NCBI GenBank assembly: GCA_028283145.1
Contig: JAPYNY010000012.1
Coordinates: 1-64,000, forward strand
Length of the DNA: 64,000 bases
DNA from: Candidatus Hopanoidivorans cymbastelae
Lineage (GTDB): Bacteria > Actinomycetota > Acidimicrobiia > Acidimicrobiales > Hopanoidiivorantaceae
Direction of reading: 5' to 3'
Under the pieces are notes generated by a model that was given only the letters and a program-made list of their open reading frames with translations, ran no database searches and was not told the DNA's origin. Below, piece after piece: positions 24,683 to 32,874 of this stretch. The number at the start of each line of letters is the position of its first letter. Positions within the stretch are counted from its first letter, which is position 1. A program made the translations under genes and the position numbers.

Positions 24683-25594
24683 TCAGTTAGGGTCTTGAAT
24701 TGGGTCGGGCAGGTTTTTCAGTGGCTTAGCCAGATTTTCTGCAGGAACAACTGAGTTCTCTACAAGCGTTGAGTTTTCTGCCAGCTCAACCGGATTAACT
24801 TCGTGTGGCGTCATCTTGAAGGCTCGCTGCAACATCCGCGTAGCTATCAACAACAGCAGTATTCCGAAAAGCACCTGGCCAAGGGTTTCGCTCAGCCAAC
24901 TGGATACCCAAGCGCCTACCAGAGCTAGGGGTATGCCTCCCAGTCCAGCTGCTGTGCCTATCCTAAAGTCTATGTTTTCAAGTTTGTAGTTGCGATATGT
25001 ACCAATCAGGGCGGTTGGTACAATCACCAGCAGGGAAGTGCCTTTGGCTACCACCGATGAAAAATCTAGCAAGAGGATAAAGACAGGCACCATAACCACT
25101 CCCCCGCCAATGCCTAGCAAGCCAGACAGCGTGCCGACGAAAATTCCCGTCAACACAAAGGTGAGCGCTACTAGAAAACTAAAGTCATAGCCGTCGGCGA
25201 CATTGACACTGCCCAGAATTAGTCGCCCAGCGCCCAGCAACATCACCAAGACAAAAACAAACATCAGCAATCGCAGGTTGATTTTTGACAACAACTTGGT
25301 GCCCAGCAGCACGCCCCAAAAAGAGCCGGCAAAAACCAGCGGGGAGGCCACCCAGTTGACAGATCCATCCAGAATATAAATCAGAACCCCTGAAGACGCC
25401 AAGAAGACATTGGGCAACAGTGAAGTGCCATGTGCCAACCGCTGCGGAAGCTTGGCAAACAGTATGAAGGCCGGCACTAGTAAAACCCCTCCCCCAATGC
25501 CAAAGAGACCTGAAAGAAAACCGACAAAAAACCCAGTCAGAACGGCTAGACCGTCAGTTTTGGTGAGGTTAGGTAACTTTGAGCTAAGAGACAA
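24683..25594 (-). CDS. TauE/SafE-family membrane transporter
   Basis: A 303-residue integral membrane protein with about eight hydrophobic segments and the repeated glycine motif of the family: GLFGIGGGVLLVPAF near residue 30 and GLLGIGGGVVMVPVF near 160. Members export or import small organic or sulfur anions such as sulfite or sulfoacetate; the substrate here is unknown. A polar tail of about 35 residues ends the protein. It lies one base from the end of the acyl-CoA synthetase gene, on the same strand. Confidence 0.88.
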   Translation of the reverse strand: MSLSSKLPNLTKTDGLAVLTGFFVGFLSGLFGIGGGVLLVPAFILFAKLPQRLAHGTSLLPNVFLASSGVLIYILDGSVNWVASPLVFAGSFWGVLLGTKLLSKINLRLLMFVFVLVMLLGAGRLILGSVNVADGYDFSFLVALTFVLTGIFVGTLSGLLGIGGGVVMVPVFILLLDFSSVVAKGTSLLVIVPTALIGTYRNYKLENIDFRIGTAAGLGGIPLALVGAWVSSWLSETLGQVLFGILLLLIATRMLQRAFKMTPHEVNPVELAENSTLVENSVVPAENLAKPLKNLPDPIQDPN

Positions 25595-27259
25595 TTAGCT
25601 CACCATTTCGCGCAACTGAAATTTCAGTACCTTGCCTGAAGCGTTAGTCGGAAGCTCGGGTAAAAAGATTACTTTTTTGGGAACTTTGTAGTTGGCCATC
25701 TGCGTTTTGCACCAGTCTAGGAAATCTTGGTCATTAATTTGATGGGGTTCCCCGCTTGAGTGCAATTTGGGAACCACAAAGGCTGCGCAAACTTCACCCA
25801 TCCGCTCATCCGGCGTTCCCACTACAGCCACTTGGGCCACGCTTTCGTGTGCCAAAATCAGATTTTCTATTTCAGCGGGATAGGCGTTGAAACCACCGAC
25901 TATGAACATATCCTTCTTTCGGTCGGTTATGGCAATGTAGCCTTGGGCGTTCATGACGCCTATATCACCTGTGTGCAACCAGCCTTCAGAATCAATGGCC
26001 TGTAGGGTAGCTTCTGGGTCACCGAAATAACCTTGCATTACGTTATAGCCTCTGACCAGCACCTCACCAGCTTGGCCCCTTGGCAACTCAAAGCCGTCAT
26101 CGTCGGCGATACGCACTTCAACGCCAGCAATGGCGCACCCAGATGTGGTGGCTATGGTTTCAGGATCGTCATCGTGGCGACACATCGTGGCAATAGCTGA
26201 ACTTTCTGTCAAGCCGTAGCCGGTTACCACCGTCTCAAAGCCGAGATGGTCCCGCATTTGGCGAATCAACTCAACTGGAATAACGGCTGCTCCGGTTACC
26301 GCCAGACGCAAAGAAGTCAAGTCAAAGTCGGGCAGTTGCGGGTGGTTGAGGATGCTTTGGTACAAGGTGGGTGGCCCAGGCATCACGCTGATGCGGTGGA
26401 TAGCAACCTTGCGCATGACCTTTTCAACGTCAAAGACGGCATGCGGGTAGATGGCACATCCCGCCATTATAGAAGCCAACCAACCCGCCTTATAGCCGAA
26501 GCCATGGAAAAAAGGGTTGACGACGAGATAGCGGTCAGAACTGGTCAAGCCCACTAGATCGCTCCAGACCTTATAACCTCTGAGTGACTGGGCATGGGTG
26601 GTCATAACCCCTTTGGGCATGCCAGTAGTGCCTGAAGTAAACAAGATATCTGAAAGATCCTGGCTGCGGCGAGCGTTGATGCGGGCTTGGAGTTCAGCAT
26701 CTGAAACACGTTCGGCACGAGACAAAAAATCTTGCCAACTTGTAAGCGCCCCGATCACCTGGGCAACTCCGCTAGGTGTTGCATCCAAAGACACAATCTC
26801 TGCTAACTCTGAGAGTCCTTTGACTGGAAGGTCAGCCGTAGCTGGGCCGTGAGCTTGCCCCAACAGATCCACGTAGTCGGTGTCAAGGAAGTTTTGAGTG
26901 CATAGCAGCATTGAAGCACCGCTTTTTTGAATGACAAAACCGGCCTCACGCCCTTTGAAACGAGTATTCAATGGCACTAGTACGGCACCAGCAGCTTGCA
27001 ACCCTATGGCCGCTATGATCCATTCCGCCATGTTGGGCGCCCAGACAGCCACGCGATCATCTGGCTCAATGCCCGAAGCGATGAAGGCTTTGCCAGCTCG
27101 TTCCACCGCAGCTTGAAGTTGGTTGTAACTGAGTTGCTTATCTCTATCAGTGTCGGCTATGGCCACAGCATCTGGCTGTTCTTGCGCCTTGGTTTGCACC
27201 AGCTTGGGAATGGTTTCCCAGAGCAGGTCTCCACGAGTTGTATCAGCTGAGTTCGTCAT
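25595..27259 (-). CDS. AMP-dependent acyl-CoA synthetase/ligase
   Basis: Activates a carboxylic acid to acyl-CoA via an acyl-adenylate. From the ATG at 27259 it has 554 residues. Motifs: phosphate loop DILFTSGTTGMPKGVMTTHA near 215, VVTGYGLTESSAIATMCRH near 340, GWLHTGDIGVMNAQGYIAITDRKKDMFIVGGFNAYP split over A5-A8, and the catalytic lysine in PTNASGKVLK near the C-terminus. The chain length or aromatic preference cannot be told. The frame extends upstream into the preceding gene, so the later ATG is preferred. It follows the formate dehydrogenase genes by 22 bases, but a functional link is not obvious. Confidence 0.9.
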   Translation of the reverse strand: MTNSADTTRGDLLWETIPKLVQTKAQEQPDAVAIADTDRDKQLSYNQLQAAVERAGKAFIASGIEPDDRVAVWAPNMAEWIIAAIGLQAAGAVLVPLNTRFKGREAGFVIQKSGASMLLCTQNFLDTDYVDLLGQAHGPATADLPVKGLSELAEIVSLDATPSGVAQVIGALTSWQDFLSRAERVSDAELQARINARRSQDLSDILFTSGTTGMPKGVMTTHAQSLRGYKVWSDLVGLTSSDRYLVVNPFFHGFGYKAGWLASIMAGCAIYPHAVFDVEKVMRKVAIHRISVMPGPPTLYQSILNHPQLPDFDLTSLRLAVTGAAVIPVELIRQMRDHLGFETVVTGYGLTESSAIATMCRHDDDPETIATTSGCAIAGVEVRIADDDGFELPRGQAGEVLVRGYNVMQGYFGDPEATLQAIDSEGWLHTGDIGVMNAQGYIAITDRKKDMFIVGGFNAYPAEIENLILAHESVAQVAVVGTPDERMGEVCAAFVVPKLHSSGEPHQINDQDFLDWCKTQMANYKVPKKVIFLPELPTNASGKVLKFQLREMVS

Positions 27260-27281
27260 GGCAATGCCAGGCTCAATTTGC

Positions 27282-28145
27282 CTAGTTGGGTTCAGGAGCC
27301 GATACGGGAGCAGCTCCGGTGCCAAAACGTCCTTTGATGCAAAGATGACCGTGCGAAACTTCGTGGTCGGCAGGTGAAGTTACCCTGACCACCGTTTCAT
27401 CTTGGGCCAAAATCTCAAGGTTGCAACCCACCCCGCAATATGGGCAGACAGTTCGGGTAGTAGCTTGTCTGGACTCGTCCCACTCCCCCGATTCCCGCAT
27501 TTCAAACTCGATATTAAAAATGAGCGCGCCAGTCGGGCAGACGCCAATACAGTTGCCGCAATAGACACATGCGGAGTCGGGCAAAGGAATGTCAAACTCA
27601 GTTGCGATTGTGGCGTCGAAACCGCGGTTGGCCACGGTAATGGCAAATGAATGCTGAGCTTCCACGCCACAGGCCTGAACGCATTTATAGCACAGCACAC
27701 ACCGGGCATAATCACGCACGTAGAGAGTATCTTGCAGTTTAGCGGCTTGAGACACGGTGGCAGCGGCTGGGCCGTGTCTGGATGGGTCAGCTTCATAGTC
27801 AGTCAGCCAGGCTTGCATATCTGTATCAGCTCTGGCAAGATCTACCGAGGAACTAAGCAGCTCCAACACCATTTTTCGGCTGGTGAGCACTCTGGCGCTG
27901 TTGGTGGAAATGGTCATGCCCTCTGAAACTTTTCTGGAACAAGCTGGTACTAGCGCTCTGGAACCCTCCAACTCCACAACACAAATCCGGCAGGTATTTG
28001 CGGGGGTGAGATTTGAGGCAAAGCAGATGGTGGGCAAGTTGATGCCACTAGCCTGACAGACCGACAAAATGGTATCGTCTGGCGTAGCTTCACATTGGGC
28101 GCCATCAATCTCCAGCGAGATTTTCGAGTTGCTCTGGGGATTCAT
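27282..28145 (-). CDS. Formate dehydrogenase N-terminal iron-sulfur module, encoded separately
   Basis: This 287-residue protein corresponds to the N-terminal half of NAD-type FdhA. It has a [2Fe-2S] ferredoxin domain (ICFASNLTPANTCRICVVEL, residues about 42-60), a segment with paired cysteine clusters CVLCYKCVQAC and CVYCGNCIGVCPTGAL for two [4Fe-4S] clusters, then the molybdopterin-oxidoreductase Fe4S4 motif CPYCGVGCNLE near 233. It ends soon after GHLCIKGRFGTG. In typical FdhA the chain would continue straight into RLTTPLVR, which here begins a different gene at 31911. The protein should wire electrons from the catalytic subunit to the diaphorase. It is the last fdh gene of the cluster. 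Confidence 0.9.
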   Translation of the reverse strand: MNPQSNSKISLEIDGAQCEATPDDTILSVCQASGINLPTICFASNLTPANTCRICVVELEGSRALVPACSRKVSEGMTISTNSARVLTSRKMVLELLSSSVDLARADTDMQAWLTDYEADPSRHGPAAATVSQAAKLQDTLYVRDYARCVLCYKCVQACGVEAQHSFAITVANRGFDATIATEFDIPLPDSACVYCGNCIGVCPTGALIFNIEFEMRESGEWDESRQATTRTVCPYCGVGCNLEILAQDETVVRVTSPADHEVSHGHLCIKGRFGTGAAPVSAPEPN

Positions 28146-28167
28146 GGTTGGCTAATCTTAGCTGGTC

Positions 28168-30009
28168 TCAGACCTTCAGCAAATTCAGCTGGATAGCTGA
28201 GCGAACAGCAGCGGCGGCAGTTTGCCCCAACCCGCAAATGGATGCATCGGTCATCACCGCATCCAGGTCGGCCAAGATATCTCGCTCATGGCTTTGCGCA
28301 GGGTTATCTCCTGGGGCAGGGTTGTCATTTTCAGCAACTGCTCTGAGCCGCTCCAAGGATTCTTTTTGGCGCACAGTGCCAACTCTGCAGGGCACGCACT
28401 GTCCGCAGGATTCATCCACAAAGAACTCCACGATATTAGCCATTAAATCAGCTATGTCAGCAGAATCAGGCACCACTATGACTGCGCCGGAGCCCAGGGT
28501 CAAGTTGACTGCGCCGGTGTCTTCAAAGCTGAGGGGCACCGCAAGCTGTTCTGGGCCGACAAAAGCTCCAGCTGCCCCGCCCAACAGCACCAAGGGTTCA
28601 GCTTCGGCACCAGCTAGTTGCAGCAATTCCGAAAGAGTGGTCCCCAGCGGAACTTCATAAAGCCCTGGTTTGGCGCAAGCACCTGAAAGGCAGAACAGTC
28701 GCGTACCCTTGGAAGCTTCAGTGCCGACCTGAGCGAAAGCTTCACTGCCTTCAGTCAGGATTGGCAAAATATTGGCAAATGTCTCAACGTTGTTGATCAG
28801 AGTCGGCTTGCCGAAAAGGCCGACTTCGGTTGGGAAAGGAGGTTTGCTTCTGGGTTCGCCTCGATAACCTTCAATGGAGTTGAACAAGGCAGTCTCTTCA
28901 CCGCAGATGTAGGCCCCGGCGCCTCGTCGCAACTCCAGACTGAAGCTGAAGTCTGCCCCAGCAATATCGGATCCCAAAAGCTTTGCTTCACTAGCTTCCA
29001 GACAAGCTTGAGCCAGAATTTGCATAGCAGCAGGATACTCGCTGCGGACGTAGATGTAACCTCGCTGTGCTCCTGTGACGTAGCCGGCAATGGTCATGGC
29101 TTCAATCAGCGCGAACGGGTCGTTTTCCAATAGAACTCTGTCCTTGAAGGTGCCTGGTTCTGACTCATCGGCGTTAGCTACCACATAGCGTTCGGTCTGG
29201 TCTGCTTGAGCTACCGCACGCCACTTTATGGCAGTCGGGAAAGCTGCTCCCCCCCGCCCGCGCAACTGAGATTTTTCCAATTCGCCTAGAACCCACTCAG
29301 GGCCGCGTTGGATAGCCAACTCAAGAGCGTGGTAGCCTCCACTGGCTCGATAGCTGTCTAGAGTTGTTGGCGTGCTGTCCAGAATCCGCTTGAGGAGTTT
29401 AGGTTTCCCAAGGCTGTAGGCCAACGGAATCGAAGCTGGGCTATGCTCCGAGGGAGTTTTTTGCGCCAACTCGGGTGCTTCAACTGCTGTTTCAAGTCTG
29501 GCGGGATTGGCTTCAGGCACGCAAAACCGTTGCGCAACAGAACCGGCGCATTCCACAAAAGCCATTGGAGCCAACTCGCACTGACCCAGACACGGGCTTG
29601 CATGGACTGCGACTTCCGAAGACTCCAAGTTGGCACTGGTCTGTTCAAGCAGTTCTTCGGCACCCATAAAACGACAGGCCATGTTGGTGCAAATGTGGAT
29701 AGCTTTGTCGGGCTGTGGAGTGGTTGGCAGCAGCGCGTAAAAGGTTGCCACACCATAGATGTCGGCGCGAGGAATTAAAAGCTGTTCGGACAACTCCTCA
29801 ACGGCCCCTTGGCTGATCCAACCCATTTGGTCTTTAAGAGCGTTCAGGGCTGGTAGCAACAGCGTGCGACGAGAGGCGCCTCTTCTGATGATGCGTTCAG
29901 ACCCGTTTCCGGCAAAACTGCCACTAGTTGGCGCATGTGCCTTCAGTGCCTTGGCTATGGCAGCCAATTCTTGCTGAGTTGCCTCAACTGTGCGCTTAGT
30001 CAGTTCCAC
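28168..30009 (-). CDS. Fused NuoE-NuoF-type NADH-binding diaphorase subunit of formate dehydrogenase
   Basis: A 613-residue fusion. The N-terminal 170 residues are NuoE/FdsG-like with a thioredoxin-fold [2Fe-2S] site (ICTNMACRFMGA and SPCLGQCELAP). The rest is NuoF/FdsB-like: NADH/FMN-binding GRGGAAFPTAIKW near 243, NADESEPGTFKDR near 268, GAGAYICGEETALFNSIEGY near 348 and the [4Fe-4S] ESCGQCVPCRVGT near 560. It would pass electrons from formate oxidation to NAD. It starts four bases after the stop of the catalytic subunit gene and ends 22 bases before the iron-sulfur module gene. Fusion of the E and F parts is known in some formate dehydrogenases and hydrogenases. Confidence 0.92.
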   Translation of the reverse strand: MELTKRTVEATQQELAAIAKALKAHAPTSGSFAGNGSERIIRRGASRRTLLLPALNALKDQMGWISQGAVEELSEQLLIPRADIYGVATFYALLPTTPQPDKAIHICTNMACRFMGAEELLEQTSANLESSEVAVHASPCLGQCELAPMAFVECAGSVAQRFCVPEANPARLETAVEAPELAQKTPSEHSPASIPLAYSLGKPKLLKRILDSTPTTLDSYRASGGYHALELAIQRGPEWVLGELEKSQLRGRGGAAFPTAIKWRAVAQADQTERYVVANADESEPGTFKDRVLLENDPFALIEAMTIAGYVTGAQRGYIYVRSEYPAAMQILAQACLEASEAKLLGSDIAGADFSFSLELRRGAGAYICGEETALFNSIEGYRGEPRSKPPFPTEVGLFGKPTLINNVETFANILPILTEGSEAFAQVGTEASKGTRLFCLSGACAKPGLYEVPLGTTLSELLQLAGAEAEPLVLLGGAAGAFVGPEQLAVPLSFEDTGAVNLTLGSGAVIVVPDSADIADLMANIVEFFVDESCGQCVPCRVGTVRQKESLERLRAVAENDNPAPGDNPAQSHERDILADLDAVMTDASICGLGQTAAAAVRSAIQLNLLKV

Positions 30010-30012
30010 TGA

Positions 30013-31911
30013 TTATCCAACAGAATTGCTTGGCAGTTTGTCAATGCGAATAGCTGTGGCCTTGAATTCCGAAGTCCCCGACAGCGGGTCCCAATCGTCA
30101 GGCACCAAAACATTGGTGTCAACTTGGTCGGCAAAGTGCAAAGTCAAAAAAGCCAGTCCCGCCCTCAAACTGCCTGCAACCCGCACAGGAGCCGTAATGC
30201 TGCCCCGCCTGGAAGTAACCCGCACGCACTCCCCGTCTGACAGATTCAATTGCTCAGCATCAAAGGAACTGATCTCCAAAGCTTCATCCAGCCGGAAAGG
30301 CGAACTATAGTTGCTTGACTGGACGCCTGTGTTATAAGAATCCAGTCTTCGCCCTGTAGTCAAGCGAATGGGGAACTCCTCATTGAGCTCATCTACCGGC
30401 GGGCGCCACTTTACAGCATTGAAAGGAGCTTTGGGCCCCGTAAAAGGTCGCTCCCAAAGCCGGCCATGCAAGAATTGGCTGCCTGGGTGATCTTCGCTGG
30501 GACAGGGCCAGCGGATACCGCCTAGTTCTTCCAAGCGTTGGTAGCTCATGCCCCGATGCATGCCAGACACCTGCCTGAGTTCGTCCCAGATAGCTTCAGC
30601 ATCAGGCAAACCCCAGTTGGCTCCAAGTGCATCAGCTAGCCGGCACACAATGGTGATGTCGTCCAGAGCCTCTCCGGGGGGCAAAAGGGCCGGCCGCATA
30701 AGCTGGACACGGCGCTCACTGTTGGTGACCGTTCCAGCTGTTTCCGCAAAACTGGCAGCAGCCGGCAGCACCACGTCGGCCATTGCGGCTGTGCGCGTCA
30801 GGTGAATGTCTTGCACTACGAGATGGTCCAGCCCCTCCAGCAGCTTGCGTGCGTGGGACACGTTGGCTTCTGAGTTGGCTGGGTTCTCCCCTATCACATA
30901 AAGGCAGCGCAACTCCCGGCGTTCCATGGCTTCAAACATCTCCGAGAGATGCCAACCAGGCTTTGGGGGGATGTGTGCGCCCCAGATGCCTTCAACTCGT
31001 TGGCGAATTTGTTCGTCTTGGAGATCTTGAAAGCCTGGCAGTCGGTTGGGCAGGGCGCCCATGTCGCCACCGCCTTGAACGTTGTTTTGTCCCCGCAGAG
31101 GACACAGCCCCGACCCATAGCGCCCCACATGGCCGCAGAGCAAAGCCAAATTTATGAGCGAGAATACATTTTCCACTGCCGTGTGGTGCTCTGTGATGCC
31201 CAAGGTCCAACAAAGTTGAGCCTTGTGGGATGTGGCGTAGTCATGTGCCAGCTCAACTATGCCTTCAGCAGGTACGCCGGTGATGTTCTCGGCTGCCTGC
31301 GGTGTATAGGAGGCAACCGATTCAGAGTAAGCCTCAAATCCTTCAGTTGCGTGGTTGATGAATTCTTCGTTGTAGAGTTTCTGGCGTATGATTTCATGCC
31401 CGACAGCGTTGGCCAAGGCAATGTCTGAGCCAACGTCCAACCCCAGCCATAAATCGGCAAAAACAGCAGTGGGTGAGAATCTAGGATCAACCACAATGAG
31501 CTTGGCGCCGCGCCTTTGGGCTGCCAGCATGTGATGAAACATGATCGGGTGGGCTTCTCTGGCATTTGAACCCCACAGGATTATCAGATCGGCGCAGCCG
31601 AGTTCTTCATATGAACTAGTGCCTCCCCCAGCTCCAAATACTGTCGCCAGACCGACGACGCTAGGGGCATGTCAAGTTCGGTTGCAGCTGTCTATATTGT
31701 TGGAGCCAACCACCGTGCGAGCAAATTTTTGGGCAATGTAGTTCAACTCGTTGGAAGCCTTGGAACATGAAAACATGCCAAAGCTCTTGGGGTCGGCTTG
31801 GCGAGCCTGATGTATACCCGTTGCAGCTCTATCCAGTGCCTCATCCCAGCTAGCTGGACGCAAGCCGTCTGCATCGCGTACTAGAGGAGTTGTGAGGCGT
31901 TGCTTGGACAC
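30013..31911 (-). CDS. fdhA: Selenocysteine-containing formate dehydrogenase catalytic subunit (Mo/W-bisPGD)
   Basis: Oxidises formate to CO2 at a molybdenum or tungsten bis-pterin cofactor. Two open frames, 31911-31675 and the one ending at 30013, are in the same frame and separated only by TGA (31674-31672). The text before it, GSNNIDSCNRT, and after it, HAPSVVGLATVFGAGGG, match FdhA around its catalytic Cys/Sec, so TGA is codon 80 read as selenocysteine. A SECIS-like hairpin follows. The product has 632 residues. Further landmarks: ILWGSNAREAHPIMFHH, IVVDPR, LRGQNNVQGGGDMGALP, IGENPANSEAN and the C-terminal molydopterin-dinucleotide domain (RLTTGRRLDSYNTGVQS). It lacks the N-terminal Fe-S domains, which a separate gene supplies. 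Confidence 0.95.
31626..31667 (-). promoter_or_regulatory. Bacterial SECIS element of the formate dehydrogenase gene
   Basis: Read on the minus strand just after the TGA, GUCGUC (31659-31654) pairs with GGCGAC (31648-31643), leaving a GGUCU loop. A lower stem of CCCC and AGC (31667-31660) pairs with GCU and GGGG (31632-31626). The GGUCU apical loop is, from memory, the same as in Escherichia coli fdhF. Confidence 0.82.
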
Positions 31912-31920
31912 TCTTTTAGT

Positions 31921-32874
31921 TTACGAAACATTTGAATTTGTAAAAGGCAGCGAGCATATTTGAGCTTCGGCGCCCGCGGCGGTAAACAACACGTCAGAGG
32001 GACTGACGGAGCGATGAGCCAGCACCAGACCGCTATATCCAAAACGGGGTGAACAAACCAGGCTTGTGAGCTGAGCTTGAGGCTTGGGCAGCTCTTGGAC
32101 ACCTTGGGGGTTTGAGCCGTATAGCTGTGAGCCGGCTTCACAAAAAATCTCGTCTGAGAAGTTCACGCCCAAAAGCCTCCTAGGAGCCCCGCTGCCACGA
32201 GAGTGCATTCGCTCGACCAACTCTTGGCCCACGTAGCAACCCTTGGTAAAGCTGACGGCTTCTTCCAAAAGGGCAGTGCCAATTTCAGATGGAATCGCCT
32301 CGGGCAGTATTTCTCGCCCCAACTGGGGGATGCCAGCTTCGACACGCAGAATGTCCAGCGCAGCTGGACTGCATTGGGGCATGTCAGCAGGTAGGGTCAG
32401 TTGCCGGCCTAAAAAATCAAAGCCTATGACATCGCCCCATTGAACTTGAGCTTTCAATATTTCAGGCTGGGTGCTTTCCGGCTGACAATCAGCAGGCAGC
32501 TTGGCTCCTCTATAGGAGTGCAAAACCCAGCTATCCTGTGAGATTTCGCATTTGACCCTCAGCAGAAAACGTTCCAGCCTTCTGTGGATGGCATCCCCCC
32601 AACCCGCTGGCACTTCCAACACAAAATGCTCGTCGGAGGCTCTGAAGATTCTGCCATAGGCCTCAACTTTGCCGGTGGGCTGGAGCAGAAAAGTCCAAAC
32701 AGCTTCCCCAGGCTCAAGGCTGGCTATATCTTGTGAGAGTTGCCCATTCAAGTATTCCGAGGCATCCGGGCCCGCTATGTTGACCACATCTCGGCTCTGC
32801 CTCACGTAACCAGCTTGGTCACGCAAGATAGCGTAGTGCTGGTGAAGTTCAGCAATCTCTTGAGCAGACGTCAC
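31921..32874 (-). CDS. ygfZ: YgfZ/GcvT-like folate-binding protein
   Basis: A tetrahydrofolate-binding aminomethyltransferase-fold protein of 317 residues that, in studied bacteria, helps maintain iron-sulfur enzymes. The diagnostic motif KGCYVGQELVERMHSRG is present near residue 220, with the cysteine intact, and the N-terminal fold shows LNGQLSQDI. It starts overlapping the trpE stop by four bases and ends ten bases before the formate dehydrogenase gene. Co-location with an iron-sulfur-rich enzyme set fits its role, though its first partner in the operon is trpE. Confidence 0.9.
   Translation of the reverse strand: MTSAQEIAELHQHYAILRDQAGYVRQSRDVVNIAGPDASEYLNGQLSQDIASLEPGEAVWTFLLQPTGKVEAYGRIFRASDEHFVLEVPAGWGDAIHRRLERFLLRVKCEISQDSWVLHSYRGAKLPADCQPESTQPEILKAQVQWGDVIGFDFLGRQLTLPADMPQCSPAALDILRVEAGIPQLGREILPEAIPSEIGTALLEEAVSFTKGCYVGQELVERMHSRGSGAPRRLLGVNFSDEIFCEAGSQLYGSNPQGVQELPKPQAQLTSLVCSPRFGYSGLVLAHRSVSPSDVLFTAAGAEAQICSLPFTNSNVS

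Follow-up and report, generated by a model that had tools for sequence, protein, structure and literature searches.

Three genes on the minus strand of the window, a 64,000-nucleotide stretch of a contig from Candidatus Hopanoidivorans cymbastelae, very probably encode a bis-MGD formate dehydrogenase that is cytoplasmic and contains selenocysteine (31911..27282; Table 1). Formate electrons would be delivered to NAD(P)+, an in-frame UGA would be decoded via a SECIS hairpin and the Fe4S4 domain would be provided in trans. We base this assignment on the conserved UGA, the covarying hairpin with its loop GGT codon, the sel genes and fdhD of the host, co-occurrence with SelB, cysteine homologues that lack the hairpin, catalytic residues that align with those of FdhF, adjoining matches to FdsA and a conserved gene order. 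It also draws on a matching complex of Actinomycetospora chiangmaiensis with selenite-dependent formate removal (PMC7176365). An apparently broken gene in a little-studied Acidimicrobiales lineage can be resolved in this way as one for a predicted selenoprotein. The earlier note, made from the DNA letters, had recognized the selenocysteine codon and overlooked that fdhA is without an Fe4S4 domain, which is carried by another protein encoded in the operon.

Table 1. Positions of the formate dehydrogenase genes and their elements in the window.
Feature	Position	Strand	Description or basis
fdhA, formate dehydrogenase catalytic chain	30013..31911	minus	632 residues, Sec at 80, GTG start, without Fe4S4 domain
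UGA codon 80, read as selenocysteine	31672..31674	minus	aligns with Sec of E. coli FdhF and with TGA in relatives
SECIS apical hairpin, GUCGUC-GGUCU-GGCGAC	31643..31659	minus	pairing across 99 sequences; lost in Cys homologues
fdhB, NuoE-NuoF fusion, FMN/NAD(P) diaphorase subunit	28168..30009	minus	613 aa; Pfam and TIGR01959
Iron-sulfur subunit, N-terminal part of the usual FDH alpha subunit as its own protein	27282..28145	minus	287 aa; Pfam and FdsA match
Fe4S4 domain, molybdopterin oxidoreductase type, CPYCGVGC...CIKGRFG	27318..27461	minus	residues 229-276 of the 287-aa protein

The two open frames of fdhA had been described as lying in one frame and joined by a TGA at codon 80, and this proved correct. 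Counted from the GTG at 31911, that codon is the sole interruption of the frame and stands between the open frame 31911..31672 and the remainder to 30013. The gene had been placed at 31626-31911; it is indeed there but runs far past that interval, to 30013. The residues around the UGA (DSCNRT-U-HAPSVVGLATVFG), together with the alignment to E. coli FdhF (FDH-H, 1aa6), bear out the proposed FdhA-like flanks of a catalytic Cys/Sec. U80 aligns with the X of that structure (Sec140), the following residue is His in both proteins, and PLRGQNNVQG aligns with PVRGQNNVQG, such that the active-site Sec, the adjoining His and the Arg of RGQNNVQG are all present. In profile searches the fdhA product matched TIGR01591 over model positions 50-672 (E=1.1e-191), although on its own it scores 638.4 bits, below the curated cut-off of 666.25; the domains PF00384 and PF01568 were matched as well. 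A motif search across related loci, in which either TGA or TGC/TGT was permitted at the Sec site, gave TGA in all 104 distinct matches. The homologous frame is continuous on both sides of the site: Sec lineages have UGA there, and the one lineage with Cys has no SelB match that passes the cut-off. The homologue alignment that the earlier note had named as a possible refutation gave none. Formate dehydrogenase alpha subunits and SelD have been named the most widespread bacterial selenoproteins (PMC5029168). Selenocysteine is expected in this class of enzyme; the division of its main subunit into two proteins is less so.

Downstream of the UGA, the predicted hairpin with a GGUCU apical loop is present as described, and its distance, given before as about 12 bases, is exactly 12 nt. 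Its six base pairs are paired in 99.7% of cells among 99 distinct related sequences, two pairs vary on both sides, and no slid control exceeds 83%; thus, the apical hairpin is beyond chance. The compensatory changes are synonymous (e.g., GTC..GCG to GTG..GCC). Of 127 genes, 126 use GGT for the Gly of the loop, a codon that makes up 12% of the Gly codons farther along the same genes. The SECIS loop of E. coli FdhF is likewise GGUCU. A second, lower stem also forms part of the fold predicted for the window sequence. In the form drawn, however, just 61.8% of its cells are paired across relatives, and we therefore reject it as a conserved part of the SECIS.

Homologues with cysteine in the same operon offer a view of what becomes of the hairpin after loss of selenocysteine. 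Four such homologues, from one genus in the host's phylum (family f84; L182-L185), have the same split operon with a Cys codon (TGC/TGT) at the Sec site. Both the GGUCU loop and the stem are absent from their DNA, and no SelB match in these four genomes passes the cut-off (the one in G472 falls short of it at 228 bits).

The host genome (2.33 Mb, draft, 89% complete) carries all four sel genes, selA, selB, selC and selD, as had been predicted; their absence, which would have spoken against decoding, was not what we found. The tRNA-Sec (selC) has the anticodon UCA, the SelA and SelB genes are adjacent, and an fdhD gene is also present. Among 118 related genomes, nearly all from the host's order, SelB passed the cut-off in all 29 that carry a Sec fdhA vs. 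32 of the 89 that do not (Fisher p = 7e-11). The suggestion that such machinery is uncommon in actinobacteria is overstated here: SelB exceeds the curated cut-off in 61 of these 118 genomes, and selenocysteine is not rare in the host's order. Taken with the conserved UGA and the hairpin, these observations constitute strong sequence evidence that codon 80 is decoded as selenocysteine. The host selD has an in-frame TGA of its own within the motif SSGAGUAAKLG (contig C56 of the host genome; locus L193, 1620-1622), and host SelD is probably itself a selenoprotein, which is a known arrangement.

Neither TIGR01591 nor the Pfam profiles matched an Fe4S4 domain on the fdhA product, which begins with RLTTPLVR, past the place of that domain in FdhF-type enzymes. 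In the host and the relatives that were read, no such domain occurs in frame upstream of fdhA. Truncation of the gene by misassembly was ruled out, as relatives from many phyla show the identical start. The domain is found instead at the C-terminus of the 287-aa protein encoded downstream of fdhB, which matches PF13510, Fer4 and PF04879 (the last with E=8.9e-18). Positions 1-46 of TIGR01591 are matched by this protein and not by the fdhA product. At its front are 2Fe-2S and 4Fe-4S motifs, and the stretch that separates them, where NuoG has its extra cluster, contains no cysteine. On R. capsulatus FdsA (6tg9_A), the 287-aa protein matches residues 22-303 and the fdhA product residues 307-931; the two matches adjoin and together cover FdsA. 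Between the two genes lies fdhB, whose product matches PF01257, PF01512, PF10531 and PF10589, as well as TIGR01959 (E=1.8e-121). Thus, the operon runs from the catalytic part to the NuoE-NuoF diaphorase to the N-terminal iron-sulfur part, and a diaphorase of NuoE and NuoF type is kept alongside fdhA in relatives.

The subunits of FdsABG and of Methylorubrum extorquens FDH1 comprise an iron-sulfur N-terminal part with a catalytic part, plus NuoE/NuoF-type subunits. Both complexes (6tg9 and 7vw6, respectively) have the same domain total as the host trio, but in both the alpha subunit is a single chain of 958-989 aa whereas it is split in the host; FDH1 moreover has Cys at the site where the host has Sec. 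E. coli FdhF keeps the Fe4S4 domain on the same chain and has no NuoE-NuoF partner. Fused Sec FdhA proteins of six loci (family f77; L186, L187, L190, L202, L203, and L205) are 51-53% identical. Their UGA occupies the equivalent site, with a GGUCU sequence after it in the three that were read, but they retain the Fe4S4 domain on the catalytic chain and branch outside the split clade. In three of these loci (L186, L187, and L190) an open frame with an FdhD-like N-terminus, recognized by eye, lies directly upstream of the fused Sec fdhA.

FDH3 of A. chiangmaiensis DSM 45062 is reported to consist of FdhA3 (640 aa, with Sec), FdhB3 (614 aa) and FdhC3 (316 aa), vs. 632, 613 and 287 aa in the host, with Sec in the alpha subunit of both. 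The FDH3 proteins have the accessions WP_084681743.1, WP_018332443.1 and WP_018332444.1. The enzyme is described as cytoplasmic and NAD+-dependent, its proteins were detected, and formate removal was selenite-dependent (PMC7176365). Because these subunit sizes closely fit the operon, the enzyme is of a known kind: a three-subunit Sec formate dehydrogenase of matching sizes has already been reported. Judging from sizes, Sec and cofactor, FDH3 and the host operon may belong to the same family. A split of the alpha subunit is not mentioned in the searched portions of the main text on FDH3 (PMC7176365), and open-access texts yielded no description of a split formate dehydrogenase alpha subunit.

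The split extends well beyond the host. Among the best 80 related loci of a genome collection, all have the UGA and none has the CxxC...C motif in the upstream frame (one locus starts inside the gene), and in most of the sufficiently long loci NuoEF and then the iron-sulfur gene follow downstream. Record labels of split loci include Actinomycetota, Chloroflexota, Acidobacteriota, Planctomycetota, Gemmatimonadota, Dormibacterota and others, although metagenome-assembled genomes are sometimes mislabelled. A genus represented by two genomes (G057 and G098; loci L051, L052, and L188) shows that the two parts of the alpha subunit can also be encoded at a distance: about 13 kb separate fdhA from the iron-sulfur gene, with both genes on one contig and strand. 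In G098 the NuoEF gene is beside the iron-sulfur gene. A tree with 58 rows places all 44 split rows, whether Sec or Cys, in a single group (support 100/100) that adjoins the fused Sec relatives of family f77; branching inside this group is poorly resolved. The remaining rows are fused outgroups after correction of four (L195, L196, L199, and L200), which we classed as such by eye, overriding the automatic label "split"; the residues upstream show a CCFCGQQCG...LCPKG motif in L195, L196 and L200 and end in an LCKKG stretch in L199. Given one split group beyond fused relatives, the split looks like a derived trait with a single origin in the sampled tree. These loci likely represent a clade of soluble, Sec-containing formate dehydrogenases that is widespread and has the alpha subunit divided in two; in it, the Fe4S4 cluster and the Lys beside bis-MGD would come from another polypeptide. 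Such enzymes might offer a naturally two-part version of an enzyme relevant to CO2 reduction, and the split would make questions of assembly directly testable, including which chain holds the first cluster and when the cofactor is inserted.

In the proposed enzyme, SelB and tRNA-Sec would decode UGA codon 80 at the downstream hairpin, and formate would be oxidized at the Mo or W of the catalytic chain. The C-terminal domain of the 287-aa subunit would act in trans, contributing the first cluster, next to the molybdopterin, and the Lys that goes with it. From there electrons might pass through the other clusters of that subunit to the NuoE/NuoF clusters, then to FMN and NAD(P)+. NAD(P) is a putative acceptor, its basis being the domain matches.

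Could the UGA instead be a genuine stop, arising by nonsense mutation or sequencing error, and fdhA a pseudogene? TGA is a stop in Table 11 and the genome is an incomplete draft, but this reading is hardly credible against more than 100 relatives with the same UGA and intact frames, a hairpin that covaries and complete sel machinery in the host. Thus, the conserved UGA, the hairpin, the sel genes and the co-occurrence with SelB identify fdhA as a predicted selenoprotein gene rather than a pseudogene, in agreement with the functional reading of the earlier note. A selenoprotein might nevertheless have truly lost the Fe4S4 domain, with the 287-aa protein acting as a HoxU-like electron carrier and the catalytic chain left without a proximal cluster; the front of that protein does resemble HoxU and the N-termini of FeFe hydrogenases. 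We consider this very improbable: the 287-aa protein ends in a complete Fe4S4 domain of the molybdopterin type (CxxCxxxC and CIKG) that is kept in the members read, and on FdsA the protein stops where fdhA starts.

The direction of the reaction is a separate matter. Enzymes of the hydrogen-dependent CO2 reductase type can run reversibly. The FdhF of such a reductase (7qv7) is the best sequence match among solved structures, which could suggest that in vivo the complex is mainly a CO2 reductase or uses an acceptor other than NAD(P). This seems unlikely, as NAD(P) is the acceptor suggested by the NuoE-NuoF subunit and the matching A. chiangmaiensis complex is assigned to formate oxidation (PMC7176365). 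Oxidation of formate with transfer of electrons to NAD(P)+ is the reading that we favor.

The genes around the operon were also noted. A YgfZ/CAF17-like Fe-S cluster assembly protein is encoded at 31921-32874 on the minus strand and ends 9 bases before the fdhA start; the same neighbor lies upstream of fdhA in G001, a genome from the host's genus. Past the formate dehydrogenase genes, on the same strand, are genes for a FadD3-like acyl-CoA ligase (25595-27325) and a TauE/SafE family transporter (24683-25594), and this pair recurs in that order in G001.
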